Source of the DNA: Nitrospirota bacterium
Lineage (GTDB): Bacteria; JACPQY01
Direction: 5' to 3'
Assembly (NCBI GenBank): GCA_016180645.1
Contig: JACPAV010000036.1
Location: 1 to 34,015, forward strand
DNA: 34,015 bases
Shown here: positions 1-17,307 of the stretch, in pieces
Numbering within the stretch: the stretch's first letter is position 1
How the letters are laid out: each line of letters begins with the position of its first letter
The notes under the pieces: generated by a model
The model's database searches: none
What the model saw: only the letters and a program-made list of their open reading frames with translations
Told to the model about the DNA's origin: nothing
Program-made: the position numbers and the translations under genes

Positions 1-3000
1 GTTATTCGTCACGGCTACGTTCGGCGAAGGCGTGCCGTTGTAGTTGGCGTCGGTGCTGGTGGAACCTGAGAACACGATGGAGTAGGCGATGTTGCCATCC
101 TGAACCGCGTCATCCACGCCGGTGACCGTGACGGTCTGCGGACTGTTCCAGTTGAGATTCGTGAAGATGAGCGAGGCCGGGCCGACCGTGCCCTCGGTCG
201 TGTCGTTTGAACTGTAGTTGACCGTGACGTCCGCCGTGGGTGAGGAAGTCAGGGACACGGTAAAGGTGGCCGTCCCGCCCGCTTCGGTCGTGTTCCCGCT
301 GATTGTGCTCACGTTGTAGCCCGGCGTATCGTCGTCCGTGTTCGTCACGGAAACATCGACGGGATCGAGACCGTTGTAACTTGTGTCCGTGCTCGTCGCC
401 GCCCCCGTCGTGATCGTGTAGGCGATGTTCCCGTCCGCCGCGACGTCATCCACGCCGGTGACAGTCACCGTCTGAGGTGTGTTCCAGTCGGCGCTCGTGA
501 AGGTCAGGGAGACCGGGGAGACCGTGCCTTCGGTCGTATCCGTGCTGGAGAGGCCGATCGAGACGTTGGCCGTGGGTGGCGTGTTCAGGACCACCGTGAA
601 GGTCGCCGTGCCGCCCAGTTCGGTCGTGTTCCCGCTGATTGCGCCGACCGTGATTCCGGATGGGGCGATGGAGAAGTTTGCGTTCGAATCGTCAGCCGAA
701 CTGTTGCCGTAGGCGTCCGTGGCCGTGAGCCTGACGCGCACGGTGCTCGAGCTGATCGCGGGCACCGTCCACGTGTAGCTCCCATCGTTCGTTTCCCCGC
801 TCGCAATCGAGTTCAGGTAGCTGCCTCCGCTGTCCGTCGAATAGTCGAGGGCGAGGGTGAAGGCGCTCGCGTCGGTCAAGTCCGCGTTGTTCCACGTGAT
901 CGACCTACTCTGCCCTTGGGTCCACAGTTCGGCGCCATTGGGGGCGATCAGAGTGGAGATGAGAATCGATGGGGCGGCGATATCATTATTCAGAGCTGTG
1001 GGGGAGGACTGGTTCCCGACCGCGTCGGTGGCGGTGACATATAAGGAAGGGTTGGTATTGTCGCCGATGGCCGTGGCCCCGAAGGAGCCATCGGCCAGTG
1101 ATGTGACGGTCGTGATGAGTGATGTGAGAAGACCATCGGAGTAGATTTTGACGGTGGAATTGGCTTCGACGGCTCCGGCTGCTCCACCGACGGTATCATT
1201 CGTACCCGGTGTATTCTGGGTGACCGTCAGTTGCGCAGGGGCCGGCGCGGGAGGCGGAGTCGAGTCCACCGTCCACGTGTACGAGGCGGGCGACGGATCC
1301 GCGTTGCCCGCGGGGTCATTGGCCCGGACGGAGAAACTGCGAGGACCATCGGCGAGGCTACTGTACGCCTTGGGTGAGGCGCAGGTGCTGTAGGCGCCGG
1401 AATCGAGCTTGCATTCGAAAGTTGCGGCCGAATCGGGACTGTTGAAGGTGAACGACGCCGAGGTCTGATTGGTCAGGGATGAAGGCTGACCGCTGATGGA
1501 CGTTTCAGGGGCCGTCGTATCGAGCGTGACGGTTGCCGTCAGGCTTGAGGTGGCGTTGCCCAGGGAGTCGCGGAACCGGACGTAGACGGTGCGCGTTCCG
1601 TCGGCGCCGGAAGACAAGGTCCAAGGCTTGGAAGCGGAATAGGGCTCATAGGGTGAAAAGGACGTATTGTCGTTTGAGAACGCCATCTCGGGCGCGTCCG
1701 TCGCCGACAAGGTCAGCGTGACCGCCGTGGAGTTCACCGCCGCCGCCCCGGAATTGATCTTTACCGACCCGCCCGTCGGCGCGCTCGTCTTGACCGTCCA
1801 CGTGTACCCGGCGGGCGTCGGATCCACGTTGCCTGCGGCATCGGCGCCGCGGACAGTGAACGAATGAGGACCATCGGATAGGGGTCCGGAGATCGAGTGA
1901 GGAGAGGCGCAGGAGGAGGCCGGAGCAGAGTCGAGAGCGCATTGGAAAATGGCGGACGTATCCGGGGAGGTGAAAGTGAACGTCGCACTCGTCTGATTGC
2001 TGAGAGCTGATGGCTGAGAGCTGATCGCTGTATCGGGCGGCGCGGTGTCCACTGTCCACGTGAACGAAGCGGGAGTCGAGTCGATGTTTCCTGCTGCGTC
2101 CTTCGCCCGGACGTTGAAGGTGTTCGACCCTTCGACGGCGCTCAGGGTGAGCGGGGCGGTGCAGGCGGCGGCGGAAGCCGAATTCAAAGAACAGGCAAAG
2201 GAGCACCCCTCACCCCCGCCCTCTCCCCCAAGGGGCGAGGGAGAATTCTTATCGGAGCAGGAGAAAGAAAAGGTACCGGTGCCCTTGTTGCTCAGAACTG
2301 ATGGCTGAACGGTGATGGCTGTTTCGGGCGGGGTTGTGTCGACCGTCCACGTGAACAGGGCGGGAGTGAGATCCTTGTTGCCCGCCTTGTCGATGGCGGA
2401 GACGGAGAAGGTGTTCGACCCTTCGACGGCGCTCAGGGTGAGCGGGGAGGCGCAGGGCGACGGGGCGCCGGAGTTGAGGGAGCACGTGAAGGTTGATTCC
2501 GGCTCAGAACTGGTAAACTCAAAGGTCGCCGACGCCTGGTTGCTGAGAGCCGGCGGCTGAGAGCTGATCGCTGTTTCGGGCGGAGCGGAATCCTTCAGCG
2601 CCAGCTTGAACGGCACGGACAGCGGCGTGGGGTCCGTATTGCCCAGCGCGTCCGCCGCCTTCACCAGCAGGACGTGATCGCCATCGTCGGCCGCAGGAAC
2701 ATAGGACGCCGGGCAAACCCTGAAGGCTCCCCCGTCCAGCGCGCACTTGAACAGGCAGGCCGCCTTGTCGCATTTGAACACGAAGACAGAATCGGGCTTT
2801 GTCACCGTGCACGAGGTAGGGGCGGCGCCTGAACCGGTTTCCGCTCGACGTTTCGCCCCCAAGGGTGGCGCGCAGGGAGTGGAGATCAGCGTGGTGTCCG
2901 GTGGGTTCAGGTCCACTGCCTTCAGTTCGATCTTTACGTCCGCCGGCGCGGCGACGCCCGCTGCCTTGAAGTCGTCCTTCACTTTCTGATCGAGTTGAAC

Positions 3001-3981
3001 GCTCAGCGTCTCGAAAGCCACCTGCACTTGTTCATTGGTGAGCTTCTTGTTGTCCCCATTGGAGGCGGACGCAACCGCCTGCTGGAGAATGGCGGCCACC
3101 CCTCCGGGCTGGCCAGGCGATGCCGAACCCAGCGCCACCGCCACCGCCACCTCGGTCAAGGTGGACACACCGTCACCGTTCAGGTCGGGCAATTCCACTT
3201 CGTTCGTGTTGATCGTCGTCGGCTTGATGTCCAGGGTCAGAACGGGGGCGCCCGCCTTGCCGCCGGATGCCGTTGCATCGGCCTGCTGGACTTTCACCTC
3301 GACCGTGGTGGTGACACGAACATACTCCACATCCTGCCGCTGTCTCGACCGAACGCGCGTGCTGATCGCGTTCTGGCCGTCTTGCGCCGATTTCTTGGGA
3401 AGATCGAACGAGAGTTGGAAGACGAAAGCGGTCTGGCCGTCGTCCTCCACGGGCGGTTGGCCGCTTGCCTGCTTTCGCGCGGCAGCACCTCTCACGCCCC
3501 CTCTCACGCCTCCCCGAACCCCACCGCGGACGCCTGAAGCCTCGGCCCCTCTCACGCCCCCCCGCACGCCGCCTTGCTCCGATCCGCGGACCCCACCCCT
3601 GATGCCGCCCCGGATCCCGTCGGCCACAAGCTGATCGTTCACGTACACGTCGGCCACCACATCTTTGGAGTCCGCCGCCTGAATCCCGTTCAGCATCGCC
3701 GCCACCTCGGGGGAGAGCGGAATGTCCATGTCCATCGGTACCACGTCTTTTTTCGCCTCCGGCAGTTCGATTTTGCGCATGCAGGCGGGAAGGAAGGTGA
3801 GCAGTGAGCAGCAAGTGGTGAGGAGCAGGGCGAGAGTCGAGAACCGAGAACCGTGAACCGTGAACCGCGAGGAGTAGGGCGAGAGGCGCGAGGCGGGAGT
3901 CGTGAGCCGGGGAGAAACAAAAGAAGAAAAAGCAAAAGGAACGCGCGAGACTTCGCGCAGACTCAGCCCTGCCAACGACAT
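1..3981 (-). CDS. Modular surface lipoprotein A (C-terminus beyond window edge)
   Basis: The frame is open for 1327 codons from ATG 3981 to the left edge, with no stop. The lipobox LPAC puts the modified Cys at about residue 67, so the segment before it is unusually long, and a heptanucleotide array encodes part of it. The ATG at 3981 is chosen because it is the only ATG upstream of the lipobox and because a -35/-10 pair ends 6 bp before it. Next come a PLSPEVAAMLNG motif, a DQLVADG motif and G[VI]RG repeats. An EF-hand-type loop (DLNGDGVSTLTE, residues 266-277) follows, then about five Ig-like domains of the 'PDT..ATF.F...F.C.LD....C.SP....GS.TF' type. Further Ig-like modules and Calx-beta-like repeats (TVTGVDD, EGTV.P.SL.F) run to the edge. 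It is homologous in its N-terminal module to the lipoproteins at 5556 and 17050. It is probably exported and lipid-anchored; the ligand is unknown. Confidence 0.85.
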   Translation of the reverse strand, partial: MSLAGLSLREVSRVPFAFSSFVSPRLTTPASRLSPYSSRFTVHGSRFSTLALLLTTCCSLLTFLPACMRKIELPEAKKDVVPMDMDIPLSPEVAAMLNGIQAADSKDVVADVYVNDQLVADGIRGGIRGGVRGSEQGGVRGGVRGAEASGVRGGVRGGVRGGVRGAAARKQASGQPPVEDDGQTAFVFQLSFDLPKKSAQDGQNAISTRVRSRQRQDVEYVRVTTTVEVKVQQADATASGGKAGAPVLTLDIKPTTINTNEVELPDLNGDGVSTLTEVAVAVALGSASPGQPGGVAAILQQAVASASNGDNKKLTNEQVQVAFETLSVQLDQKVKDDFKAAGVAAPADVKIELKAVDLNPPDTTLISTPCAPPLGAKRRAETGSGAAPTSCTVTKPDSVFVFKCDKAACLFKCALDGGAFRVCPASYVPAADDGDHVLLVKAADALGNTDPTPLSVPFKLALKDSAPPETAISSQPPALSNQASATFEFTSSEPESTFTCSLNSGAPSPCASPLTLSAVEGSNTFSVSAIDKAGNKDLTPALFTWTVDTTPPETAITVQPSVLSNKGTGTFSFSCSDKNSPSPLGGEGGGEGCSFACSLNSASAAACTAPLTLSAVEGSNTFNVRAKDAAGNIDSTPASFTWTVDTAPPDTAISSQPSALSNQTSATFTFTSPDTSAIFQCALDSAPASSCASPHSISGPLSDGPHSFTVRGADAAGNVDPTPAGYTWTVKTSAPTGGSVKINSGAAAVNSTAVTLTLSATDAPEMAFSNDNTSFSPYEPYSASKPWTLSSGADGTRTVYVRFRDSLGNATSSLTATVTLDTTAPETSISGQPSSLTNQTSASFTFNSPDSAATFECKLDSGAYSTCASPKAYSSLADGPRSFSVRANDPAGNADPSPASYTWTVDSTPPPAPAPAQLTVTQNTPGTNDTVGGAAGAVEANSTVKIYSDGLLTSLITTVTSLADGSFGATAIGDNTNPSLYVTATDAVGNQSSPTALNNDIAAPSILISTLIAPNGAELWTQGQSRSITWNNADLTDASAFTLALDYSTDSGGSYLNSIASGETNDGSYTWTVPAISSSTVRVRLTATDAYGNSSADDSNANFSIAPSGITVGAISGNTTELGGTATFTVVLNTPPTANVSIGLSSTDTTEGTVSPVSLTFTSADWNTPQTVTVTGVDDVAADGNIAYTITTGAATSTDTSYNGLDPVDVSVTNTDDDTPGYNVSTISGNTTEAGGTATFTVSLTSSPTADVTVNYSSNDTTEGTVGPASLIFTNLNWNSPQTVTVTGVDDAVQDGNIAYSIVFSGSTSTDANYNGTPSPNVAVTNN
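1999..2033 (-). repeat. Heptanucleotide array in an Ig linker of lipoprotein A
   Basis: Units gctgaga, gctgatg, gctgaga, gctgatc and gctgtat encode the linker AISSQPSALSNQ. Related arrays occupy the same linker of neighbouring Ig domains at 2290-2324 and 2542-2576. Confidence 0.7.
2128..2156 (-). repeat. REP-like element, copy 1 in lipoprotein A
   Basis: CCCTTCGACGGCGCTCAGGG followed by TGAGCGGGG encodes LTLSAVEGS in an Ig loop. It is identical to the copy at 2419-2447. Confidence 0.65.
2205..2243 (-). repeat. REP-like element with CTCTCCC/GGGGCGAGGG arms in lipoprotein A
   Basis: CCCTCACCCC-type sequence followed by CCCTCTCCCCCAAGGGGCGA and GGGAG forms an imperfect hairpin. It encodes NSPSPLGGEGGGEG, which interrupts an Ig-like domain between FSFSCSDK and CSFACSL. 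Similar sequences are known as dispersed repeats in many proteobacteria (recalled, not searched). Confidence 0.65.
2419..2447 (-). repeat. REP-like element, copy 2 in lipoprotein A
   Basis: Identical to 2128-2156 and in the next Ig domain, so the two may have spread by domain duplication rather than by separate insertion. Confidence 0.65.
3797..3908 (-). repeat. Degenerate heptanucleotide tandem array, 16 units
   Basis: On the + strand, sixteen consecutive 7-bp units follow the pattern G-N-G-A-[GA]-N-C, for example gtgagca x2, gagaacc x2, gtgaacc x2, gagaggc and gcgaggc. The array lies inside the 5' end of lipoprotein A, just upstream of its lipobox, and is read in frame. Because 7 is not a multiple of 3, gain or loss of one unit would change the frame. 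Confidence 0.9.
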
Positions 3982-5555: not shown

Positions 5556-8500
5556 ATGCTTGTTCGGCGGACGCGGGACGTTCTCCTCGCGTTCGTCGTG
5601 GCCCTGTCCTCGTCCGTGCTGATCGGTTGTTCCGCGTGCGACGGCAAGAAGGGCGACAGGTCGGTCGAGCTTGAGATCGGCCTGCCGCTCACACCTGAGC
5701 AGGCCGCGGCGTTGGAGGGCATCCGGGCCGGCGTGCGGGGCATCAGCCGGGTGGACGATCTGTCGCGTGTGGATGAGCTTTCGCGTGTGGACGAACTGAG
5801 CCGGGTTGATGAGATCAGCCGGGTGGACGAGATCTCCCGTGTGGACGAGGCTCTCCGAGGGGCTGCGGCCAACCTCCTCATCGACGACCAAGCCGTGGCG
5901 GAGGGCCGGCGCGGAGAAATCGTCTCCGGCGTGCGCACCGGCGTCCGTCTGGGCCGACGCGCCGCTCCGGGCCGTAAAGTCGTGAATGGGGAAGCACGGG
6001 AGGGACGCGCTCCGTTGCGTCCGCCCGACCGTCAGGGCCACGATGGAGCGTGGCTCTTCAGGGGTCACGATCTTGCGATCTCACGCAAGCAAGCGCCGGA
6101 AGCTCCCTCCTTCTCGTTTCATATCCTCGTCTCGATTTCGGAGAAGTTCCTCCACGCCGGCGAGAGGAGGCTTCGCCTTCAGGTCTTCCCTCCCGAGGAG
6201 CCGGAACTGATTCTGATCGACGTCCAGATGCCGCTCTCGGTGGAGGAGGAGAAGGGCAGGCCCGTCATCCCGGAGCAGGAGATCCCCGCCGAGCTTATTC
6301 AACTGCCCGACGGTGACGAGGACGGGGTATCCACGCTGGTCGAGACCATCACGGCCGGACCGGATTTCGCGCGAGACCCCGGCAAGAAACCCTCGGTTGA
6401 ACTGACACGAGGCATGCTCGTCCTGCTCGGCAAGAATCTGGGGCAAACCCTCCAGGCCGAACAGGGCATCACCGTGGAGGTTTCCATCGATCCCCAGGCC
6501 ATCACGCTCGATCCGCCGGAGACGGCGGGAGCCTACGTTCCGCCCGAACCGGGGACTCCCGCCGCTCAGCTTCCCCCGGGCGTGACGATTGTCGGCATCC
6601 CCACCACTTTCACCTTCTCCTGCTCCGGTACGGCCGGGACGGCCGCGTGCAAGTACGCGTGCTCCATCGACGGCGGCCCGTATTTCGGATGCGCTTCGCC
6701 TTTCACGTGGAAGTTCGACACGCCGGGAGAGCATCGGATCCAGGTCAAATCCGCTGACAACCTCGGCAATACGGACACCTCCCCCGTCGAGTTGATCGTC
6801 AATGTCCTCACCCCGGAGGTCGCCGCTGATCCCGAAGCCGTGAAACAGTACGACCTCCCGCCCAACACGATCATCTTCCAAGAGCCGCCGGCCGTAAGCA
6901 GTGAACTTTCAGCCACGTTCACCTTCACGTCTTCCGAGGTCAACACCACGTTCGAGTGCTCGCTCGATGGCGCTCCGTGGGCGGAGTGCTCAAGTCCGCT
7001 CGTCCTGAGCCTGTCGAAGGACGGCTCGCACACTTTCCGTGTCCGTGCCATCGACTCCGCGGGGCAAGCCGACCCCACACCCGCCACATACACCTGGACC
7101 ATCGACACCACCGCACTCGAAACGACCATCACCAGCGGGCCAACCGCCACCACCGGATTTACCTCGGCAACTTTCGAGTTTTCCTCTACAAGCCCTGGCG
7201 CCACCTTCGAGTGCTCCCTCGACGGAACAGGCTTTGCCCCGTGCACTTCCCCCCACTTGATCACTGGACCACTTTCTTCGGGCACCCACACGTTCAGGGT
7301 TCGCGCAAAGGCTGTTTCAGGAATCGTCGATCCCACACCCGCCACGTACACCTGGACGGTCAACACCACTCTCCTCGACACGACGCTCGCAGGGGCGGGC
7401 TTGCCCGCCCTCCTCACCACCCAGACGACGGCCACGTTCGAGTTCACCGCATCCAATCCCGCGGCCACGTTTGAATGCGAACTGGACGGGGGCGGGTTTT
7501 CGGCCTGTTCATCACCCAAAGCCTATTCCGGGCTCACGTCCGGTTCCCATACGTTCAAAGTGCGAGCGAAAGATACCTCCGGCAACCTGGACTCCACGCC
7601 CGCTTCCTACACATGGACCGTGGACGTGACACCTCCGACTTTTGCCGGACTTGCGACCGCCACGGCCGTCTCAACGACCCAGATCGACCTCGCTTGGACG
7701 GCGGCGACTGACAACGTGAGCGCCTCAAACAAGATCATCTATGAGATTTGCCAATCGACGACCTCCGGCACCTGCGCCACAACCTTCACCGCCACGTACA
7801 CCACCACTGCCGGCGCCATTTCCTATTCCGCTCAGTCCTTAGTCCTCAGCACTCAGTACTTCTTTATGGCCCGCGCCAAAGACGAACTCGGAAACCGCGA
7901 CACCAACACCACCGAAAACTCCGCCGCCACCCTCGGTGGCCCGCTACCTCCCGGCGGGAATGTCCAGGCCGTCGCCACCCATCTCGGCGATCACACCTGT
8001 TCTCTCATCTCGGACGGGACGGTCAAGTGCTGGGGGAACAACCTTTATGGTCAGCTTGGGGACGGAACAACCACCAATCGCCCAACGCCCGCCGGCGTTC
8101 CTTCACTGCCGAATGCTATCGCCATAGCTGGAGGGAACACTCACACCTGCGCGCTCATAGTGGGCGGGACCGTCAGGTGCTGGGGAGAAAACTCTTACGG
8201 TAAGCTGGGGGACGGAACGACCACCAACAAGTGGACGCCTGTTCCAGTGGCGTCTCTTTCCAACGCGGTCGGGATAGCGGGAGGGGGCATTCACGCCTGC
8301 GCACTCTTGGCGGACGGGACGGTCAAGTGCTGGGGAAGCAATAACTATGGAAACCTCGGGGACGGAACAACAGTAGACAAGTGGACCCCTGTCCCGGTGG
8401 CGTCCCTATCCAACGCCATCGGAATGGCGGGAGGGTACTATCACACCTGCGCACTCTTGGCGGACGGGACGGTCAAGTGCTGGGGATCGAACCAGTACGG

Positions 8501-10151
8501 TCAGGCGGGAGATGGAACAAGCCCCCCACCGCCAAGCAATGAAAAGAAACTGACACCGGTGGTCGTGAGCGCTCTCTCGAACTCCGTGACCATTGGCGTG
8601 GGAGGCTATCACACCTGCGCACTCTTGGCGGACGGGACGGTCAAGTGCTGGGGACGCAATAACTACGGGCAGATCGGGGACGGAACGACCACCAACAGGT
8701 TGGCTCCTGTCGCCGTGTCCGCGTTGAGTGCGGCTGTCTCGGTGGTGGGCGCGGGTGCGCACACTTGCGCCCTCTTTTCGAACGGGACGGTTCAATGTTG
8801 GGGATACAATCTTGAAGGTGAACTTGGGGATGGGACGACCGCCAACAAGTGGACGCCTGTCCCGGTGGCGTCTCTTTCTAACGCCATCGGGACGGCAGGA
8901 GGGACCGCTCACACCTGCGCGCTCATAGCGGACGGGACGGCAAGATGCTGGGGGTGGAATCCTTCCGGTCAGCTTGGGGATGGGACGACGGTGGACAAAT
9001 CGACGCCCGTGGCCGTCACGAATCTCGGCGGCCCGCTCGGCGTGAAACTCCCCCGTCTCCACGAGTCCACCGCCTCCGGCGCGCCGTCTCGCCCCTTCCG
9101 CGAAGGGCTTACGAACCACCTCGGCTATCACACCTGTTCCCTTCTCTCCGACGGCACAGTCAAATGCTGGGGACGCAATGGCTATGGCCAGCTTGGGGAC
9201 GGGACGCTGGTGCAAAAGACGACCCCGGTTGCCGTTTCCACGCTCTCCGGCGCCGTCGCCGTCACGGGAGGTCTCTATCACACCTGCGCTCTGGCCTCCA
9301 ATGGAACGGTCAAGTGCTGGGGACGCAACCTTTACGGCCAACTGGGCGACGGGACGACCACGGATTCGCCCACTCCTGTGGCCGTGATCTCCTTGTCGAA
9401 CGGCGTCGCCGTCACGGGAGGTTACTATCACACCTGCGCACTGGCCTCCAATGGAACGGTCAAATGCTGGGGATACAACTATAGCGGCCAACTGGGCGAC
9501 GGGACGTTCGCGCAGAGGACGACCCCGGTTACCGTTTCCACGCTCTCCGGCGCCGTCGCCGTCACGGGAGGCTTCGATCACACCTGCGCGCTGGCCTCCG
9601 ATGGAACGGTCAAATGCTGGGGATCCAACGATTCCGGCCAACTGGGCGACGGGACGACCACGGATAAGACGACCCCGGTTGTCGTCTCCACGCTCTCCGG
9701 CGCCGTCGCCGTCACGGGAGGTCTCGATAACACCTGCACGCTGGCCTCCGATGGAACGGTCAAATGCTGGGGATGGAACGCTAACGGCCAACTGGGCGAC
9801 GGGACGACCACGGATAAGACGACCCCGGTTGCCGTTTCCACGCTCTCCGGCGCCGTCGCCGTCTCGGGAGGTGACGAGCACACCTGCGCGCTGGCCTCCA
9901 ATGGAACCGTGAAATGCTGGGGATGGAACGCTAACGGCCGGCTGGGCGACGGGACGACCACGCAGAGGACGACCCCGGTTGCCGTTTCCACGCTCTCCGG
10001 CGCCGTCGCCGTCTCGGGAGGGAACGAGCACACCTGCGCGCTGGCCTCCGATGGAACGGTCAAATGCTGGGGACGCAACACTTACGGCCAACTCGGCGAC
10101 GGGACGACGATCACCCGCCTCACCCCCGTCGCCGTGACGAACCTGCCGTGA
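5556..10151 (+). CDS. Modular surface lipoprotein B with 14 RCC1 blades
   Basis: A 1531-residue lipoprotein with the lipobox LIGC at Cys25. The shared N-terminal module has LPLTPEQAAALEG, then six SRVDE[LI]-type hexapeptides where the paralogues have GVRx repeats, then DQAVAEG. An EF-hand-type loop (DGDEDGVSTLVE) spans residues 252-263. About four Ig-like domains (F.C..DG....C.SP..GSHTF.VRA.D) and one fibronectin-like domain follow. From about residue 803, fourteen RCC1 units (HTCAL--DGTVKCWG-N--GQLGDGTT) run to the C-terminus. They are split 7+7 by a linker near residues 1157-1190, which suggests two seven-bladed beta-propellers. RCC1-type propellers mediate protein or ligand binding; the cargo here is unknown. 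ATG 5556 fits the lipobox and the promoter geometry. Confidence 0.9.
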   Translation: MLVRRTRDVLLAFVVALSSSVLIGCSACDGKKGDRSVELEIGLPLTPEQAAALEGIRAGVRGISRVDDLSRVDELSRVDELSRVDEISRVDEISRVDEALRGAAANLLIDDQAVAEGRRGEIVSGVRTGVRLGRRAAPGRKVVNGEAREGRAPLRPPDRQGHDGAWLFRGHDLAISRKQAPEAPSFSFHILVSISEKFLHAGERRLRLQVFPPEEPELILIDVQMPLSVEEEKGRPVIPEQEIPAELIQLPDGDEDGVSTLVETITAGPDFARDPGKKPSVELTRGMLVLLGKNLGQTLQAEQGITVEVSIDPQAITLDPPETAGAYVPPEPGTPAAQLPPGVTIVGIPTTFTFSCSGTAGTAACKYACSIDGGPYFGCASPFTWKFDTPGEHRIQVKSADNLGNTDTSPVELIVNVLTPEVAADPEAVKQYDLPPNTIIFQEPPAVSSELSATFTFTSSEVNTTFECSLDGAPWAECSSPLVLSLSKDGSHTFRVRAIDSAGQADPTPATYTWTIDTTALETTITSGPTATTGFTSATFEFSSTSPGATFECSLDGTGFAPCTSPHLITGPLSSGTHTFRVRAKAVSGIVDPTPATYTWTVNTTLLDTTLAGAGLPALLTTQTTATFEFTASNPAATFECELDGGGFSACSSPKAYSGLTSGSHTFKVRAKDTSGNLDSTPASYTWTVDVTPPTFAGLATATAVSTTQIDLAWTAATDNVSASNKIIYEICQSTTSGTCATTFTATYTTTAGAISYSAQSLVLSTQYFFMARAKDELGNRDTNTTENSAATLGGPLPPGGNVQAVATHLGDHTCSLISDGTVKCWGNNLYGQLGDGTTTNRPTPAGVPSLPNAIAIAGGNTHTCALIVGGTVRCWGENSYGKLGDGTTTNKWTPVPVASLSNAVGIAGGGIHACALLADGTVKCWGSNNYGNLGDGTTVDKWTPVPVASLSNAIGMAGGYYHTCALLADGTVKCWGSNQYGQAGDGTSPPPPSNEKKLTPVVVSALSNSVTIGVGGYHTCALLADGTVKCWGRNNYGQIGDGTTTNRLAPVAVSALSAAVSVVGAGAHTCALFSNGTVQCWGYNLEGELGDGTTANKWTPVPVASLSNAIGTAGGTAHTCALIADGTARCWGWNPSGQLGDGTTVDKSTPVAVTNLGGPLGVKLPRLHESTASGAPSRPFREGLTNHLGYHTCSLLSDGTVKCWGRNGYGQLGDGTLVQKTTPVAVSTLSGAVAVTGGLYHTCALASNGTVKCWGRNLYGQLGDGTTTDSPTPVAVISLSNGVAVTGGYYHTCALASNGTVKCWGYNYSGQLGDGTFAQRTTPVTVSTLSGAVAVTGGFDHTCALASDGTVKCWGSNDSGQLGDGTTTDKTTPVVVSTLSGAVAVTGGLDNTCTLASDGTVKCWGWNANGQLGDGTTTDKTTPVAVSTLSGAVAVSGGDEHTCALASNGTVKCWGWNANGRLGDGTTTQRTTPVAVSTLSGAVAVSGGNEHTCALASDGTVKCWGRNTYGQLGDGTTITRLTPVAVTNLP
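6996..7024 (+). repeat. REP-like element read in frame in an Ig-like domain
   Basis: The segment contains GTCCTGAGCCTGTCGAAGGA, the reverse-orientation form of the CCTTCGAC...GCTCAGG element at 2128, 2419 and 15356. It encodes VLSLSKDGS at the same Ig-loop position where those copies encode TLSAVEGS or TLSTVEGS. Confidence 0.6.
7393..7410. repeat. GC-rich palindrome in coding sequence
   Basis: GGGCGGGC-tt-GCCCGCCC encodes part of AGAGLPALL at the start of an Ig-like domain of lipoprotein B. An identical stem occurs at 15499-15516 in lipoprotein C, at the equivalent protein position (VGAGLPALL). Confidence 0.7.
7831..7865 (+). repeat. Heptanucleotide array in the fibronectin-like domain of lipoprotein B
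   Basis: Consecutive units ctcagtc, cttagtc, ctcagca, ctcagta and cttcttt encode AQSLVLSTQYFF in frame. The array belongs to the same class of degenerate 7-bp repeat seen in lipoproteins A and C. Confidence 0.6.
9190..10151 (+). repeat. 150-bp tandem repeat encoding the second RCC1 propeller
   Basis: Blades 8-14 are nearly identical at DNA level with a 150-bp period; the segment CACGCTCTCCGGCGCCGTCG recurs from 9239 at multiples of 150 bp. Blades 1-7 are much more divergent, so the second propeller looks recently amplified or homogenised. Confidence 0.8.
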
Positions 10152-10259
10152 TACCGAACAGTATTTTGAAATAGGGAAATACTTCCTGACCGCCTCGCAA
10201 GTAGTGCTGGCCACCAGAGTCATTAGGGATAGTGGGAAGGTAGATGTAAAAGTAGTATC

Positions 10260-10395
10260 GGACGCATGGGAATGCGTCCCTACCACAATTCGGCATCCGT
10301 AGGGAGCGATTCCCATCGCTCCGATTGTGCGGAGACATAGGAATGTCTCCCTACGAGAAAACTACGAAGAAAATCGCCCGATGTAAAATCGGGCG
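10260..10395. repeat. Cluster of four palindromes with different stems and a shared design
   Basis: Four perfect 8-bp hairpins lie within 136 bp of the gap between lipoprotein B and the UbiA gene. They are GGACGCAT-ggga-ATGCGTCC, GGAGCGAT-tccc-ATCGCTCC, GGAGACAT-agga-ATGTCTCC and CGCCCGAT-gtaaa-ATCGGGCG. Each stem ends in AT at the loop and most are flanked by CCTAC or CTACGA. The stems differ while pairing is kept. The rest of the 10152-10420 gap holds no gene. The convergent genes on each side may share these hairpins as terminators. Confidence 0.8.
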
Positions 10396-10420
10396 CTACG
10401 AAGAGAGGGTAAAAGATGTC

Positions 10421-11917
10421 TCACTTGAGCGTCACAAATAGAAGCACAGCCGCAGTGAGCCCATTCTGCATTAGGAGAATGGGTTTTTCCCGGTAGACCT
10501 TGGCATTGACTGCGATGAACTGAAGCGCGCCAATCGGCAGAAACGTCCAGCCCAGCCCGTTCCGACCGATTATCCAGAAAGCCGCGGCATGCGCAATCGC
10601 CACGGCGATGGCGGCAACACGCTGGGCCCTTCGAAGTCCCAAAACGGTCGGAAGATTACGGATGCCTGCTGCCTTATCCCCCTCTACGTCTTTCAGGTCG
10701 ATCAGGTAAGCACCGAGCGTGAACCACGCGAAGATCGCGCCGACGTAGCCCACCGGCGCGGAAAAGTTTCCGCTGTAGAGGGAGTAACCGACCAGGAAAG
10801 CGCTTACGCTGCTGATGCCGATGACGACCTTGGAGAGCACGCAACGTTCTTTGAGCCGTAGGGGAGGCGCCGAATAGACGAAGTAGGCCAGACCGAAAAG
10901 CAAAGTCAACATCACGACCAAGACACCGGCCGACAGCGCCAAGGCCAGCGCCGCCAGGAGCACCCACCGCGAGACCCGGACGTATCGAACCGGGTCAACG
11001 GAGCCTTTCACAAGCGGTCGATGGGGTTCGTTGACGCGATCGATCTCAATGTCGTACACGTTGTTGACCATGACCGAGTAAATCCAGATCAGCCATATGG
11101 CGCAGAACGCAAGGACGGCCCGCAGCCCTAGCTCGATCCCTTGCGCCGGCAGGGCGGCGGGCGATGCTGCCGTGCCTAGAAAAAACAAGAGCTCGTAATG
11201 GACGATTCTCAGGAAGCGCGTGTCTTTGAGTATCTCCCGCACAAATGCGGGGGCCTCGATCGTACAGACGGCCAGCGTCTCAATGCCGACCATCAGCGCG
11301 AAAATCAGGGGCATCTCCTTGAACCCCGTCGCCTCCCTGCCGGCCGGGCCGGCCAGCCAGTCCAAATAAACGGGAATCGAGACGAAGAAGAACATGAGCG
11401 TATAAGAGGCAACCATCCCTGCGATAGCTCTTGGCCACGATCGCGTCGTCGCTTGAACGTACAGGAACGTGAGCAGGCATATCAGCCCGATCTCGACGCG
11501 CATTCCCAGACTGATGCCCTTGGCCGCGAGCGGCCCGAAGAAGGTCAGATAAGCGTGCAGGAGGGCCTGAATGTCCTTGACGCGCAGGTAGTCGTAATGG
11601 GGGGTGTGGCTTGCGAAGAGGGTCGAGTCGAGAATAGGAGGCAGGAGCGTTACGATCAGACCCGCAAAGATGAGTCTCAAAAGCTTGACGACCTGCTGGC
11701 CGGTCAAAGCATGAACGATCAGGCCGAGCGCCATGGCAAGAGCGAGATAGAACAGCACATAATGAGCCAACTGGATGGCGCTCAGCGTATATCCCTCGCG
11801 ATAAACCTCCAGAAAGGTGCGGAGAAGGACGAAGAACAGGAACCCCGCAAAGGAGTAGGCCAACGGGAGCGACGACTCTGAAAATCTGGCCGTAAAGCGG
11901 CTAAGCCACTCGTTCAT
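10421..11917 (-). CDS. UbiA-family prenyltransferase with an extra N-terminal membrane domain
   Basis: A 498-residue polytopic membrane protein. The C-terminal half is UbiA-like. NNVYDIEID (about residues 284-292) is the first Asp-rich motif, followed by RVNEPHRPL, and DLKDVEGD (about 405-412) is the second. These bind the Mg-prenyl diphosphate in the family, which transfers prenyl chains to aromatic acceptors in quinone, heme or lipid synthesis. Typical members are about 300 residues; here some 220 N-terminal residues add about six hydrophobic segments that I do not recognise. ATG 11917 is preferred over a longer in-frame start at 11980 because AAGGG lies 13 nt upstream and the extension is polar and arginine-rich. 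The acceptor cannot be told, since no quinone genes are nearby. Confidence 0.8.
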   Translation of the reverse strand: MNEWLSRFTARFSESSLPLAYSFAGFLFFVLLRTFLEVYREGYTLSAIQLAHYVLFYLALAMALGLIVHALTGQQVVKLLRLIFAGLIVTLLPPILDSTLFASHTPHYDYLRVKDIQALLHAYLTFFGPLAAKGISLGMRVEIGLICLLTFLYVQATTRSWPRAIAGMVASYTLMFFFVSIPVYLDWLAGPAGREATGFKEMPLIFALMVGIETLAVCTIEAPAFVREILKDTRFLRIVHYELLFFLGTAASPAALPAQGIELGLRAVLAFCAIWLIWIYSVMVNNVYDIEIDRVNEPHRPLVKGSVDPVRYVRVSRWVLLAALALALSAGVLVVMLTLLFGLAYFVYSAPPLRLKERCVLSKVVIGISSVSAFLVGYSLYSGNFSAPVGYVGAIFAWFTLGAYLIDLKDVEGDKAAGIRNLPTVLGLRRAQRVAAIAVAIAHAAAFWIIGRNGLGWTFLPIGALQFIAVNAKVYREKPILLMQNGLTAAVLLFVTLK

Positions 11918-12004
11918 ATGCCTGATGCCCTTGCGTGCTGCTCTGAGCGTACAGGCCCGCGGGGATCCTTCACGTGTCAACGCGTGGAGGACCCTGGGGG
12001 GGTC

Positions 12005-15000
12005 TCACTGCCCGCCGGTGGTGGTCTTGAGGACGGTGCCGCTCTCGCCGACGGCGTAGCCGGTGCTTCCGTTTCCGGGAAATTGAACGCCACGAAGAAG
12101 TACGGTTGTCCCGGACGTCTGGCTTATCCAGTTCCCCCCGCCGTCCGTCGTCTTAAGAATCGTCCCACTAGCTCCCACAACGTAGCCGGTGTTCGCATTG
12201 ATGAAATAGACGCCGTAAATCGCAGACGTCGTACCGGACGTTTGCGACGACCACGCGGTGCCGCCATCGGATGTCTTCAGGATCGTGCCGCTGTCCCCGA
12301 CCACGTATCCCGTGGTCGCATCCACCGGGAAATGTATCGCCCGGAGCAGATTTGTCGTGCCCGAGGTCTGGGTCTGCCACACATTGCCGCTGTTCGTGGT
12401 CCGGATGATGGTCCCGCTTACCCCCACGGCAAAAGCCGATGTTGACGTCGCAAACTGGATGGCGTTGAGTTGATTACTGGTTCCCGAGCTTTTGCTGACC
12501 CAGCTTGCCCCGCCGTTTGTCGTCTTATAGAGCGCGCCGCTCGAACCCACGAACCAGCCGGCGGTCGTATCAAGGAAATGAACACCATAGAGGGTGTTGC
12601 TGATCGCCGGGGACTGGTCGGTCCAGCCCGTTCCTCCATCGGTCGTCTTGAGAACCTTGCCGGAAGCGCCCACGGCCCAACCTGTTGTGGTGTCAACGGG
12701 AAAGTGCATATCGTAAAGATCGGTCGTAATACCTGACGATTGCGCAGCCCATGTACCACCGCTATCCGTAGTCTTGATGATTGTCCCAGAGGCGCCCACG
12801 GCATATCCGGTTGCGCTCACGGGGAAGTGAACTGCATAGAGAATCTTTCCGGTTCCGGCTGTCTGATCCGCCCAGCTTGTGCCGCCGTTGGTGGTTTTCA
12901 GCGCCGTCCCGTCTACACCCACAATGTATCCCGTTGTCGCGTCTACAGGAAAATTCGCACTCCACAAATCGGATGTTGTGCCGGACGTCTGGGCAGCCCA
13001 AGTGGCCCCGCTGTCCGTCGTCTTGTAGATCTTTCCACCGGTCCCTGCGATGTACCCGGTTGTTGTGCCTCCCACGAATCGAACGGTATAGAAATCGGTC
13101 GTTGTGTTCGGCGAATCCTGAGCGGACCAATTCGTCCCGCCGTCCGTCGTTTTGAGGACCTTCGAGGGATTTGTGCATGCCCAGCCGCAGGAGGTAGACA
13201 AAGTCACCGCGTACCCCGTGGTTGCGTCCACGGGGAAGTGGACGGAGTAAATTGGCATTGTGGTCCCGGAGGTTTGGGCCGTCCAGGTGGCGCCGCTGTT
13301 CGTGGTCTTGAGAATCGTGCCGCTGCCACCAATGGCGTACCCCGTGGTTGCGTCCACGGGGAAATGCACGCCTTCCAGGAAGTTCGTTGTCCCGGAGGTT
13401 TGGGCCGTCCAGGTGGCGCCGCTGTTCGTGGTCTTGAGAATCGTGCCGCTGCTTCCGACCGCGTAGCCCGTCGTCGCGTCCACGGGGAAATGGACGCCGT
13501 ACAGGTTGTTTGTTACCCCGGAGGTTTGGGCCGTCCAGATGGCGCCGCTGTCCGTTGTCTTGAGAATCGTGCCGGTGTTGCCGACCGCGTAGCCCGTCGT
13601 CGCGTCCACGGGGAAATGGACAGCGTAGAGACGATTGATGGTACCGGATGCTCCGCAGGTAACCGCCCAGGTTGCGCCCCCATCCGTCGTCTTGAGGATC
13701 ATTCCCCGGTCGCCGACGCTGTAGCCGGTCAGGTTGTTCACAAAATGCGTGCCGTATAGCGTCATTCCCGTAGGCTTCCGTTGCACTTCGGCCCAGGAGC
13801 CGGCCGGGCACGTGGGAGGGGCAACGGGGGCCGCGCTGACCTGCACCGTGTTGGTTTCCACATTCCCGGCTTCGTCGACTGCCCGAACGACAAAGTAGTA
13901 GGTCGTGCCCGTTGTGAGGCTGTCCACCCCGTAACTCACGGCACCGGCCGCCGTGGTGTAGGTGGTCGTAAAGGTCGTCTGGCACGTGCCGGTGGTGGTG
14001 GATTGGCAGATTCGATAAATTATGGCTGCGCTTGCGCTCACGGCGTCGGTGGCGGCCGTCCAGGTGAGGTTGATCCGAGTGGCGGAGGCGGAGGCCGCGG
14101 ACGACGCGCCGGAGAATGTGGGAGGCGTTGTGTCTACAACTACGGTCACGCCGTTGGAGGCGGTCCATGCGGCGATCTGGCCAAGCGTATCGACGGCGCG
14201 GACGCAGTTGTAGTACGTTGTGCTGGCCACCAAGCTAAGACTCGTGGTTGTCTTCGATGTGACCAGTGCTACGTCTGTAGTGGCGACGATATTCCCCGCG
14301 CAAGCGGTTGTCGTGCTCAAATTGTAATCATACCGCTGGAGCCCGCTTCCCGCGTCGCTGAATCCGCTCCAATTGACGTTCATGGTGGTGGTGGAAGACT
14401 GCGAGGAGACATCGGCTCCCGTACCATCATTAACGGTTCCGGTAGCCGGGGCCGCGGTGTCGCAGGTTCTCGTGACCGCTACGCCTCCGCCGGTATTGCC
14501 CGCGGCATCGGTGGCGGCCATGTTGAGCGTCAAGGTTTCGCCGTTCGCGCACGCGATCGCCGTTTTGGAGCATGTACCCGAGGAAAACGCGGCCGCCGCC
14601 CACTCCGTGTCGCACGCGCCGTCCGTTGATTTGCAGTATTGGCAACTCGTGATGCTCGATCCCGAATCTGAAAAAGCCGCCGAGAGATCGAAAGAGCCGT
14701 CCACGTGGGTGGCGGTGGCCGTGTTGGCCGGGGTGACGGTTCCCGCCACCGGCGCGCCGATATCGATCGTCCACGCGGTCGAGGCGGGGGAGGCGTCCGT
14801 GTTGCCCGCGGCGTCCTTCGACCTCACCTGGAAAGTGCGGGAGCCCGCCATGAGACCGGAGTACACCTTGGGAGACGCGCACGCCGAATAGCCGCCCGAG
14901 TCGATTTCGCATTCGAACGTTGCGCCGGAATCCGGGGCGCTGAAACTGAACGACGCGGATGTGGTGTTCGTGGGGTTGGGCGGCTGGGCGGTGATCGACG

Positions 15001-17050
15001 TGTCCGGGGCGGTCAGATCCACCGTCCAAGTATGGGAGGCAGGCGTAGCGTCTGCGTTCCCGGCAGCATCGACGGCGCGCGTACTGAAGCTGTGAGACCC
15101 TTCTGCCAGCGAAGTGGGTGCTGTGAAGGGCGATGAGCAGGCGGCGTACGCGGCCGAGTCGAGCTTGCACTCGAATCTAGCTGTGGATTCCGGCGACGTG
15201 AAGGTGAACGAGGCCGTGGTGGAGTTGGTCGGGTCGGTCGGCTTGCTGGTGATGGAGGTATCCGGCGGGGTCAGATCGACGGTCCACGTGAAGGTCACGG
15301 GGGTTGGATCCTTGTTCCCGGTCTTGTCCACGGCGGCAACGGAGAAGGTGTGAGACCCTTCGACGGTGCTCAGGGTGACAGGGGACACGCAGGAGGAGAA
15401 GGCGGCAGAGTCGAGGGAGCACTGGAAGGAAACGGGCGCGGACGGATTGGAATCCGTCCCTACGAATTGGAACGTGGCGGAGGTTTGGTTGGTCAGGAGG
15501 GCGGGCAAGCCCGCCCCTACGAGGGATGTATCCGGAGGCGTCTTGTCGCAATCGGCCGGGCAGGAGGCCTCGGTCTCGCCCGCCTCGCACACCTTGTTGC
15601 CGCAGACAATGGCCGGAAGTACCGTGAATTTGATCTCCGCGGGCGTCAGGTCCTTGTTGCCGATGGCGTCAGCGGCCTGCACACGAAGCGTGTGGTCCCC
15701 AGGGCTCAGGGTTCGGGGATCAGGGGTCAGGGGAGAAGCGCAGGGGGCAAAAGAGGCGCCGTCCAGGGAGCAGCGGAAGGCGCAGAAATTTTCATTGCAC
15801 GTCAGGGTTAGGGTGATTTGTTCTCCGCTCTTGATTGACGCGCCACTCGCCACTGGCAACGCGCCACTCACCGCGCTCAGCGCGGTGTCGGGCGGCGTCA
15901 AATCGACCGGCTTCACCTCTACGAGTGTTTTCACCCCTTGATCGGCGAGCTCCTTTTGGAGATTCTGAGCGAAGGACGCGGAGACGGCCTGGGCTTGTTC
16001 CTCCGTAGGCTTCTGGGCCGGGTCCTGGGCAACCTGAAGGGCCTGTTGTATCCCTGCTTCCTTCGCGATCACGGCCAACTCCACCAATGTGGAGACTCCA
16101 TCGCCATCGACGTCGGGGAGAACCACGTCGTTCAAGGCGATAGGCGTTTCTTCGATTTCGATCTCGAAAGCAGGGGTCAGGGCTCCGGGATCAGGGGTCA
16201 GTCCGGAGTCCGGCCCGCCTTGCTGATCCCCGACCCCTGAACCCTGAACCCTTAACTTCACTGTGGTTTGGACTTCGATGAGGGTTGTGGTCGCGTCCGT
16301 CGCGGGCCGAACGCGGGTGGTCAGCGTGTACAAGCCATCGGATGCCAGGGCGATCGGCAGATAGAAAGTGATCTCCATGCCCAGCGCGAGCGCATCCTGC
16401 GCTTGCCGTTTCACGCACCCTCCGCAGCCATCCCTGGCGCTCCGGGTACGGTCAGCCGTCCTGGCACCATGATTCGTGAATCGTGAATCGTCAGGAGCGG
16501 CCGTACCTGCCGCATTGTCTTGCGCGTCACTCATCACGGACCACTCGCCACTTCTTCGGGGTGGGGCCCCCGGGAGTCCCTTTCCGCCGCCGATGGCCGC
16601 GCGGACGCCCGTCCGAACGCCGGCTCGAATCCCCGTGCGAACGCCGGCGCGCACGCCTTCGGCAACTACTTGATCGTTCCACAAGATGTCTGCCGCTAAT
16701 CCGTCTTCGACCACCGCGCGAACGCCATCCTGCTGACCGGCGCGTACCCCTTGCTCAGTCCCGGCGCGCACGCCCTGTTCTGTCTCGGCACGAATGCCGT
16801 CTGTTGCAATCGTCCGAACCCCTGCCCGCACGCCCGCACGCACGCCTTCAAGGAGCGCCGCCTGCTCCGGCGTAAGCGGAATGCCGACGATTACTTCGAT
16901 CGAATCGTCCGGAATGTGATGAGAAGATTTTTTCTTCTTGTTGGAGCAGGACGAAACAAGCAGAATCGTGAGTGAGGCGAGCAGCAACGCCCATGCGAAC
17001 CCCGAGACCCTCCACGGCCGTACGATCTGGCCCTCCATTGTAGACCTCAT
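12005..17050 (-). CDS. Modular surface lipoprotein C with 14 YCF48/BNR-like blades
   Basis: A 1681-residue lipoprotein with lipobox VSSC (Cys35). The N-terminal module has GIPLTPEQAALLEG, about twelve G[VI]R units (partly as 8-residue GVRAxxxx repeats), DQVVAEG, and a canonical EF-hand loop (DVDGDGVSTLVE, residues 313-324). Ig-like and fibronectin-like domains follow. From about residue 1087, fourteen units of the form LY-VHFPVDATTGYAVG-SGTILKTT-GG--W fill the C-terminus. The last unit stops at TTTGGQ, and its missing Trp strand seems to be supplied by PAGSWAEVQ before the first unit, a velcro-type closure. Fourteen blades suggest two seven-bladed propellers. ATG 17050 overlaps the stop of the upstream small gene as ATGA, with GGGGTGG upstream. 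GTG 17059 and ATG 17038 are alternatives. Confidence 0.9.
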   Translation of the reverse strand: MRSTMEGQIVRPWRVSGFAWALLLASLTILLVSSCSNKKKKSSHHIPDDSIEVIVGIPLTPEQAALLEGVRAGVRAGVRTIATDGIRAETEQGVRAGTEQGVRAGQQDGVRAVVEDGLAADILWNDQVVAEGVRAGVRTGIRAGVRTGVRAAIGGGKGLPGAPPRRSGEWSVMSDAQDNAAGTAAPDDSRFTNHGARTADRTRSARDGCGGCVKRQAQDALALGMEITFYLPIALASDGLYTLTTRVRPATDATTTLIEVQTTVKLRVQGSGVGDQQGGPDSGLTPDPGALTPAFEIEIEETPIALNDVVLPDVDGDGVSTLVELAVIAKEAGIQQALQVAQDPAQKPTEEQAQAVSASFAQNLQKELADQGVKTLVEVKPVDLTPPDTALSAVSGALPVASGASIKSGEQITLTLTCNENFCAFRCSLDGASFAPCASPLTPDPRTLSPGDHTLRVQAADAIGNKDLTPAEIKFTVLPAIVCGNKVCEAGETEASCPADCDKTPPDTSLVGAGLPALLTNQTSATFQFVGTDSNPSAPVSFQCSLDSAAFSSCVSPVTLSTVEGSHTFSVAAVDKTGNKDPTPVTFTWTVDLTPPDTSITSKPTDPTNSTTASFTFTSPESTARFECKLDSAAYAACSSPFTAPTSLAEGSHSFSTRAVDAAGNADATPASHTWTVDLTAPDTSITAQPPNPTNTTSASFSFSAPDSGATFECEIDSGGYSACASPKVYSGLMAGSRTFQVRSKDAAGNTDASPASTAWTIDIGAPVAGTVTPANTATATHVDGSFDLSAAFSDSGSSITSCQYCKSTDGACDTEWAAAAFSSGTCSKTAIACANGETLTLNMAATDAAGNTGGGVAVTRTCDTAAPATGTVNDGTGADVSSQSSTTTMNVNWSGFSDAGSGLQRYDYNLSTTTACAGNIVATTDVALVTSKTTTSLSLVASTTYYNCVRAVDTLGQIAAWTASNGVTVVVDTTPPTFSGASSAASASATRINLTWTAATDAVSASAAIIYRICQSTTTGTCQTTFTTTYTTAAGAVSYGVDSLTTGTTYYFVVRAVDEAGNVETNTVQVSAAPVAPPTCPAGSWAEVQRKPTGMTLYGTHFVNNLTGYSVGDRGMILKTTDGGATWAVTCGASGTINRLYAVHFPVDATTGYAVGNTGTILKTTDSGAIWTAQTSGVTNNLYGVHFPVDATTGYAVGSSGTILKTTNSGATWTAQTSGTTNFLEGVHFPVDATTGYAIGGSGTILKTTNSGATWTAQTSGTTMPIYSVHFPVDATTGYAVTLSTSCGWACTNPSKVLKTTDGGTNWSAQDSPNTTTDFYTVRFVGGTTTGYIAGTGGKIYKTTDSGATWAAQTSGTTSDLWSANFPVDATTGYIVGVDGTALKTTNGGTSWADQTAGTGKILYAVHFPVSATGYAVGASGTIIKTTDSGGTWAAQSSGITTDLYDMHFPVDTTTGWAVGASGKVLKTTDGGTGWTDQSPAISNTLYGVHFLDTTAGWFVGSSGALYKTTNGGASWVSKSSGTSNQLNAIQFATSTSAFAVGVSGTIIRTTNSGNVWQTQTSGTTNLLRAIHFPVDATTGYVVGDSGTILKTSDGGTAWSSQTSGTTSAIYGVYFINANTGYVVGASGTILKTTDGGGNWISQTSGTTVLLRGVQFPGNGSTGYAVGESGTVLKTTTGGQ
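15356..15384 (-). repeat. REP-like element in an Ig-like domain of lipoprotein C
   Basis: CCTTCGACGGTGCTCAGGG and its flank encode VTLSTVEGSHTF on the minus strand. The copies at 2128-2156 and 2419-2447 encode LTLSAVEGSNTF in lipoprotein A at the same position of the domain. Confidence 0.65.
15440..15459. repeat. Palindrome of the 10260 type, inside coding sequence
   Basis: GGACGGAT-tgga-ATCCGTCC followed by CTACGA has the same 8-bp stem, four-base loop and flank as the intergenic hairpins at 10260-10350. It encodes VGTDSNPSAP within an Ig-like domain of lipoprotein C, where neighbouring domains have short linkers such as TSSEPES. Confidence 0.75.
15499..15516. repeat. GC-rich palindrome in coding sequence of lipoprotein C
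   Basis: GGGCGGGC-aa-GCCCGCCC followed by CTACGA encodes VGAGLPALL. It is the counterpart of 7393-7410 in lipoprotein B. Confidence 0.7.
15702..15736 (-). repeat. Heptanucleotide array in lipoprotein C
   Basis: The + strand reads gggctca, gggttcg, gggatca, ggggtca and ggggaga in succession. On the minus strand it encodes LTPDPRTLSPG in frame. Confidence 0.7.
16173..16257 (-). repeat. Two heptanucleotide arrays in lipoprotein C
   Basis: The first array (16173-16214) has ggggtca, gggctcc, gggatca, ggggtca, gtccgga and gtccggc. The second (16223-16257) has ctgatcc, ccgaccc, ctgaacc x2 and cttaact. Together they encode a Gly/Pro-rich linker upstream of the EF-hand loop. Confidence 0.7.
16471..16491 (-). 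repeat. Heptanucleotide array near the N-terminus of lipoprotein C
   Basis: Units gattcgt, gaatcgt and gaatcgt encode DDSRFTNHG in frame, downstream of the GVR repeats. Confidence 0.6.
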
Positions 17051-17307
17051 ATTATCCACCCCGCCGTTAGGAAATCAAACCAGTCGCCAAGATTCGGTGC
17101 AGTGAGTCTGACGCCCGCGAAGAAGGCCATGAAGGAGTAGAGCACCAGTTTCCCGAACAAGCGTATTTGCTTCTTCGTTTCCGCGGTCTTCTCCGGGTTT
17201 TTCTCAGGATGCGCGGGGCCGCCCTGATTGTTCTCAGGCGCACCGCGGACCTTGCCCGTTCCTCGGTCGGCTGTTCGATTCTTGATTGTCTTGCTCGACT
17301 CTCCCAT
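17047..17307 (-). CDS. Small membrane protein translationally coupled to lipoprotein C
   Basis: An 86-residue protein from ATG 17307, with AAGGGC directly upstream as ribosome site. A longer in-frame start at 17421 is possible but less likely. The N-terminal 45 residues are polar (many K, E, P, G). One hydrophobic segment, LVLYSFMAFFAGVRLTA (about residues 53-69), and a short hydrophobic C-terminus, FDFLTAGWII, follow. The stop overlaps the ATG of lipoprotein C as ATGA, so the two are very likely co-translated. I do not recognise a family; an accessory or anchoring role for the lipoprotein is inference from coupling. Confidence 0.7.
   Translation of the reverse strand: MGESSKTIKNRTADRGTGKVRGAPENNQGGPAHPEKNPEKTAETKKQIRLFGKLVLYSFMAFFAGVRLTAPNLGDWFDFLTAGWII

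Follow-up and report, generated by a model that had tools for sequence, protein, structure and literature searches.

The window analysed here (the whole stretch of 34,015 nucleotides, positions 1 to 34015) is contig C36 of the 4.7 Mb host genome, G000. A cluster of REPs occupies a 269 bp gap between two convergent genes, which encode an RCC1-repeat protein and a UbiA prenyltransferase, and a further REP lies within a coding sequence. These features are as follows:

5556..10151, plus strand: RCC1-repeat protein gene, 1531 aa, ending 107 bp upstream of the first REP
10259..10283, minus strand: REP copy 1, stem code CGC/GCG; head GTAG at 10280-10283, hairpin GGACGCAT-ggga-ATGCGTCC at 10260-10279
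10299..10323, plus strand: REP copy 2, stem code GCG/CGC; head GTAG at 10299-10302, hairpin GGAGCGAT-tccc-ATCGCTCC at 10303-10322
10330..10354, minus strand: REP copy 3, stem code GAC/GTC; head GTAG at 10351-10354, hairpin GGAGACAT-agga-ATGTCTCC at 10331-10350
10299..10354, no strand: REP copies 2 and 3 as an inverted dimer with outward-facing heads (BIME/REPIN-type unit), 56 nt
10373..10399, minus strand: single REP of a second family, GTAG-CGCCCGAT-tttac-ATCGGGCG; hairpin CGCCCGAT-gtaaa-ATCGGGCG at 10375-10395
10421..11980, minus strand: UbiA prenyltransferase gene, convergent with the RCC1-repeat gene
15439..15463, minus strand: fifth hairpin, an intragenic REP of the first family; hairpin GGACGGAT-tgga-ATCCGTCC at 15440-15459

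Two other kinds of hairpin were noted in the window. Just inside the end of the predicted UbiA frame (10460-10488), CCCATTCT-8-AGAATGGG is followed by TTTTT and resembles a terminator on the plus strand. Two identical hairpins, CCCCGTGG-6-CCACGGGG, lie 126 bp apart in YCF48 repeats (13214-13235 and 13340-13361) and are probably explained by the tandem protein repeats.

The original prediction, of four hairpins at 10260-10395 and a fifth at 15440-15459, was borne out at every position. Perfect hairpins (stem of at least 8, loop of 3-8) numbered 12 in the window; 50 dinucleotide shuffles averaged 3.66 (range 0-8), so hairpins of this kind are more frequent than in shuffled sequence. Three hairpins within 136 bp occurred in 0 of 50 shuffles, and the window has four. 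REP copy 1 was predicted to fold as one hairpin (-9 kcal/mol, z -4.45); for the dimer at 10299-10354 the prediction was two separate hairpins (-16 kcal/mol, z -5.80). All five hairpins carry CTAC/GTAG at the foot, in agreement with the GT(A/G)G of GTAG REPs. A common flank had been proposed for them; CTAC (GTAG on the REP strand) is constant, but on one side only, and the GA that follows it varies.

Hairpins 1, 3 and 5 and the reverse complement of hairpin 2 share the form CGGA-NNN-AT-NGGA-AT-N'N'N'-TCC-CTAC, with the second hairpin being the same element in the opposite orientation. Read from the other strand, the unit is GTAG followed by the palindrome GGANNNAT-TCCN-ATN'N'N'TCC. It comprises 25 nt with an 8 bp stem and a 4-base loop, within the 20-40 bp range of short near-perfect palindromes. 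The family consensus is GTAGGGA-NNN-AT-loop-AT-N'N'N'-TCCG, in which head, foot and loop-closing AT are fixed and the three middle pairs covary. The idea of one design with changing stems was therefore correct in outline and needed narrowing in two respects: only three of the eight base pairs vary rather than the whole stem, and the fourth hairpin, which has a 5-base loop, belongs to another family, with seven further matches in G000.

Copies of the first family were sought in G000 and in a relative from another genus of the same family (G001, Nitrospirae bacterium NC_groundwater_665, a groundwater MAG with contigs JACPQY01, 84 % complete). A strict template gave 4 copies in G000, 16 in G001 and 0 in 39 other genomes, with 0 for a reversed-pattern control; GTAG is present in all 20 of these matches by construction, and a wider search includes a few decayed heads. 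A scan of an 84,980-species collection returned 16 stretches matching the template, and the variable triplets were complementary in 15 of 15 matches from Nitrospirae bacterium NC_groundwater_665 and in 0 of 5 from other organisms. In G000 a covariance model (E < 0.01) found 4 matches, none of them outside the window contig; in G001 it found 45, dispersed across many contigs. The exact pattern GTAGGG...CCCTAC was uninformative in number (9 places, 11 in the reversed control), and most of the nine are real palindromes of other families.

Covariation was tested on 17 of the 20 strict copies, leaving out two exact duplicates and one non-duplicate copy (L048, plus strand); all 20 are fully paired. 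The covariation value was 0.385 against 0.087 for shuffled data, and the signal was lost when the arms were slid against each other. Among 16 distinct rows, 128 of 128 pair cells were paired and two-sided changes occupied 18 cells; shuffling the columns gave 6.2, and none of 500 shuffles reached 18. With five of the eight pairs invariant and the other three changing only as pairs, the structural constraint proposed for the stems is supported. The wider collection of 60 rows, less five matches in unrelated genomes, left 55 elements, of which 42 were fully paired, 5 had one mismatch and 8 had more. Pairing is therefore not absolute, since 13 of 55 elements are imperfect. Seven stem codes occurred among the 42 (CCG 14, CGC 10, CGG 8, GCG 5, TCG 3, GAC 1 and GGC 1).

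REP pairs among the copies in hand were arranged head-outward in nine cases, as in inverted dimers or BIMEs, and tail-to-tail in five. Avoidance of identical stems, as a means of preventing long hairpins, was considered for these dimers and is also discussed by Di Nocera et al. (PMC3733652, in part). All nine head-outward pairs were heterodimers, with 1.65 identical pairs expected, a difference that is not significant (P=0.14).

All four first-family copies of G000 lie within 5.2 kb on the window contig, which is odd for an actively dispersing element. Misbinning of this contig is unlikely, as it shares REPs letter for letter with other G000 contigs, although one of these families is present in G001 too. 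Comparison of the 12.5 kb stretch around the REPs with G001 gave partial matches only, the longest 67 % identical.

The hairpins had also been proposed to be a mobile element served by a REP-associated tyrosine transposase (RAYT). PF01797 matches numbered seven in G000 and eight in G001. Two in G000 are short RAYTs (L008, 156 aa; L009, 157 aa) that pass the 80-bit cut-off of NF047646 REP_Tyr_transpos with 100.5 and 88.0 bits; two longer Y1 proteins fell below it at 76.3 and 71.8 bits (4 of the 15 PF01797 matches were scored). L008 and L009 also match the TnpA-REP structure PDB 4er8. Each is surrounded by REPs, GTAG-GGGAGCATC and GGGAGGGTC/GGGCGGATC at L008 and CGCAGGC/CGCGGGC/CGCACCC at L009, so that two other families of G000 have a cognate RAYT with its own REP. 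No REP of the window family was found within 1.5 kb of a RAYT at any of the seven G000 or eight G001 matches (the latter genome being 84 % complete). A flanking RAYT is usual for GTAG families, though not defining, and families lacking one are known. The host genome therefore has machinery for REP mobilization, but no transposase belonging to the window family was found among the 15 matches. The proposed class of element is thus upheld by the GTAG head, the inverted dimers and the RAYT genes in the genome, and the link to a particular RAYT is not, as none was found with the window family at its flanks in either genome.

Comparison with described systems places the window family closest to GTAG REP families and BIMEs (PMC3733652, PMC2817692, as far as the cited sections go). 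Shared features are the GTAG head, a short stem-loop, head-outward heterodimers and complementary stem changes, together with sites between convergent genes and some intragenic copies; REP heterodimers with different stems and intragenic REPs are among the cases given by Di Nocera et al. in 2013 (PMC3733652). Variation of REP stems with pairing kept is already published. The GTAG phyla listed there are Proteobacteria, Cyanobacteria, Chloroflexi and PVC, and the string 'nitrospir' is absent from the main text (PMC3733652); the window hairpins are new GTAG REP families in a lineage outside that list. REPINs of Pseudomonas fluorescens SBW25 (Bertels and Rainey 2011, PMC3116915, in part) are likewise units of an inverted REP doublet with compensatory changes noted, but their two REPs pair in one long hairpin, whereas here the stems differ and 10299-10354 forms two hairpins. 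The two short G000 proteins match the TnpA-REP kind known from E. coli, S. maltophilia and Marinomonas (PMC8266576, in part); unlike in those systems, no cognate RAYT was found for the window family among the PF01797 matches. Rickettsia palindromic elements (RPE), as described in PMC3733652, are also palindromic repeats translated in frame within proteins. They differ in having a CGTC tag (RPE-4/RPE-6-type) where GTAG is found here, and the proteins in which they are described are numerous and unrelated; here the sites are two fixed loops in a single domain.

The fixed design with changing stems would follow if the enzyme reads head, foot and loop but senses only pairing in the mid-stem. RAYTs, which are of the HUH type, would recognize short non-autonomous REPs as folded single-stranded hairpins (PMC8266576, in part, and general background). 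The GTAG head, the GGA/TCC foot, the AT pair that closes the loop and the greater part of the loop itself are constant, while the three middle pairs, which would be sensed as a helix and not by their letters, could drift in matched pairs and so give at least seven stem codes. Nunvar et al. (2010) noted, in the section cited, that REPs remain palindromic after modification, 'suggesting selection for complementary mutations' (PMC2817692). An E. coli REP whose upper stem was swapped to its complement kept binding and cleavage (PMC8266576, 2021, in part), a tolerance that would explain free letters in the mid-stem.

One original suggestion was that the arms are rewritten when the element moves, but the paired changes may as well have arisen by compensatory mutation under selection, by hairpin-templated correction or by radiation of sub-lineages through single-pair steps. 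Quasi-palindrome correction by template switching turns a one-sided change into a two-sided one, and the stem changes would be purely mutational if a stalled polymerase copied one hairpin arm onto the other. The stem codes do form a network of single-base-pair steps, only one G-T intermediate (CTG/CGG, L114) occurs among copies with all fixed positions intact, and pairing is perfect in 42 of 55 copies. Such correction should nevertheless also produce two-sided changes in the outer GGA/TCC and AT pairs, and none occurred in the 16 distinct rows (a weak point, as the row pattern fixes these positions); imperfect copies also persist (13 of 55). We regard this origin as possible but somewhat unlikely. 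It is quite improbable that the hairpins are RNA or DNA regulators, either transcription terminators or stabilizers of mRNA 3-prime ends, with mobility incidental. Their position between convergent genes, where REPs are common (PMC3733652, in part), would suit such a role, but copies are also intragenic (15440), the stems are followed by CTAC with no T run, and the window has no Rfam family at gathering scores.

The intragenic REP at 15439..15463 lies in one of many Ig-like domains. The features of these domains in the window are as follows:

12005..17059, minus strand: host gene of the fifth REP, 1684 aa, with YCF48 (PSII_BNR) repeats and Ig-like domains
15275..15547, minus strand: Ig-like (Big_13-type) domain with both intragenic REPs (HMM of 237 domain copies)
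15498..15520, minus strand: REP of a different type (GTAGGGGCGGGCTTGCCCGCCC) that codes VGAGLPALL in frame, within the A-B loop of the domain at 15275..15547
7392..7410, plus strand: palindrome GGGGCGGGCTTGCCCGCCC in the RCC1-repeat gene, with GCAG replacing the GTAG head, within the A-B loop of an Ig-like domain
2219..2241, minus strand: repeated palindrome of CCCTCNCCCCTTGNGGGAGAGGG type that lacks GTAG, located in the B-C loop of another Ig-like domain

The fifth REP codes for VGTDSNPS in the frame of its gene and forms part of the B-C loop, which we take to be the position of antibody CDR1. An AlphaFold model of the window domain (72 aligned copies) had a pLDDT of 85.6 and placed both REP-coded stretches mainly in loops between strands 6-9, 23-31 and 40-45. 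The nearest solved folds by Foldseek were FnIII-like and PKD-like beta sandwiches. In a domain of L171 that contains a REP dimer, the predicted fold was kept (pLDDT 83.3) and insert residues 34-47 scored below 50, which would suggest a flexible loop.

Over a hundred copies of this Ig-like domain are present in giant RCC1/YCF48/Ig proteins of G000, which are of surface or secreted type. The domain search gave 124 matches in G000 and 52 in G001, and the set examined, 237 copies, consists of the HMM matches in 52 fetched regions of these genomes and the window. The 29 copies without a resolved B-C loop were kept in the REP scan and left out of the loop-length count, in which the loop had 8 residues in 115 of 208 copies; longer loops often hold repeats. 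Six whole REP dimers of the L009 family code 26-residue B-C loops (SCSDPVAAPFTGASSDAGVKPAATCT and similar), and L008-type REPs lie inside a 65-residue B-C loop. Other repeats in this loop are GTAGGGGCG palindromes, the CGCCCGGT family (in G001), the window family and a palindrome lacking GTAG, CCCTCTCCCCTTGCGGGAGAGGG.

GTAG-hairpins in the 237 copies numbered 36, with 23 in the GTAG orientation and 13 in the CTAC orientation, compared with 1.1 and 2.85 in shuffles, which break codon structure and make these expected numbers approximate. The 23 were concentrated at model state 10 in the A-B loop (n=7) and at states 27-32 in the B-C loop (n=15), with one elsewhere, and 20 of 23 were read in the frame GTA-G. 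Of the CTAC-orientation hairpins, seven are second halves of dimers in the B-C loop, one lies in the A-B loop and five are scattered (states 35, 44, 63, 76 and 83), near the chance level. GTAG REPs of at least five families, in two genera, were found in one or other loop of 19 of the 237 copies, and two copies, including the window domain, have them in both loops. None of 67 copies from two unrelated genomes, which may be REP-free, had them (Fisher P=0.0099). The loop P values are optimistic because copies related by duplication are not independent, and several A-B cases share flanks. A scan for stems of at least 7 additionally detected hairpins elsewhere than in these two loops, but hardly any of them had GTAG. 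GTAG-footed hairpins in 64 Ig-type open frames numbered 65, and 46 of these are not in the B-C loop: some are in A-B loops, others in further parts of the frames and some perhaps in untranslated ends. REPs are thus frequent in the giant genes as a whole, and it is only inside the domains that they follow the two-loop pattern.

REPs were also seen in other coding contexts. In two proteins (L183 on the minus strand near 3229 and L226 on the plus strand near 1713; G000 contigs C5 and C15), an L009-family dimer occurs in frame at one and the same position, after the motif CDG-DNDCD-LVDED, which we take to be MopE-like. At six loci (L015, L210, L216, L224, L231 and L235), REP dimers are nested in another palindromic repeat, which would read PSPARGEG...PSPSKGEG, forming composite repeats.

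The loop repeats could reflect insertion, duplication of domains that already carried them, or neither. That they are chance palindromes in the codons of a conserved loop motif, and not REPs, is scarcely credible. The sequence VGTDSNPSAP presumably resembles an ordinary loop of such domains, but at least five palindrome families fill the same loop, among them complete REP dimers of 56 nt, a pattern with 42 strict copies in G000; the domain DNA has 36 hairpins where shuffling predicts about 4, and 0 of 67 copies in the two other, possibly REP-free, genomes had them. Moreover, repeat identity among the six loops of this dimer family (family A) was 0.89-0.98, compared with 0.48-0.77 for their flanks, bar one pair. 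In that pair (L164/L171) the left flank was 0.93 identical and the right 0.63, with the left similarity beginning about 93 bases upstream, near the domain start. At least once, therefore, a half-domain seems, from these identities, to have been joined at the repeat. Alternatively, each REP family may have inserted only once, in an ancestor, into each loop that it occupies, all later spread being due to duplication and recombination of the domains; to this possibility we give somewhat more weight than to the mutational origin of the stems, though we do not favour it. It would fit the A-B loop copies, which share VGAGLPALL and similar flanks, and the contrast between the half-domains of L164/L171, as if recombined at the repeat. 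Against it, family-A repeats are far more alike than their flanks, which indicates that they are younger than, or were exchanged independently of, their domains; separate insertions are in any case needed where different families occupy one loop. Five of the 35 family-A places in hand (one of the 35 in G001) are in the Ig loops, although the loops examined total only 6.5 kb.

Taken as a whole, the hairpins are very probably GTAG-tagged REPs whose mid-stem is read as pairing, with in-frame copies in two loops of an Ig-like domain. REPs landing at other sites of the domain would be lost, the flexible A-B and B-C loops would tolerate them, and duplication of the domains, with recombination, would then multiply them. 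Tolerance and domain shuffling most likely explain the loop REPs, and a beneficial diversification of the loops by REPs may contribute. A bolder proposal, which we hold only tentatively and consider unlikely, is that RAYT-mobilized REPs land in, or are shuffled among, the A-B and B-C loops of more than 100 Ig-like domains of giant surface-type proteins, in a translatable frame, so that selfish repeats diversify exposed loops and act as joints for half-domain recombination.

As a REP family, the window elements have an ordinary design, and they provide a clean natural dataset for separating positions read as sequence from those read only as a paired helix. The loop insertions are the more important part. 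What was unexpected is the in-frame occupation of the A-B and B-C loops by several REP families; a literature search for earlier reports of REPs in loops of Ig-like domains found none. REPs are termed extragenic, and the in-frame cases in the literature cited are scattered over varied, unrelated proteins, whereas the REPs described here, of many families, have two loops of a single repeated domain in common. The presence of several families at these two loops, in two genera, makes it testable whether selfish repeats feed the evolution of loops or mark the places where a domain tolerates them.
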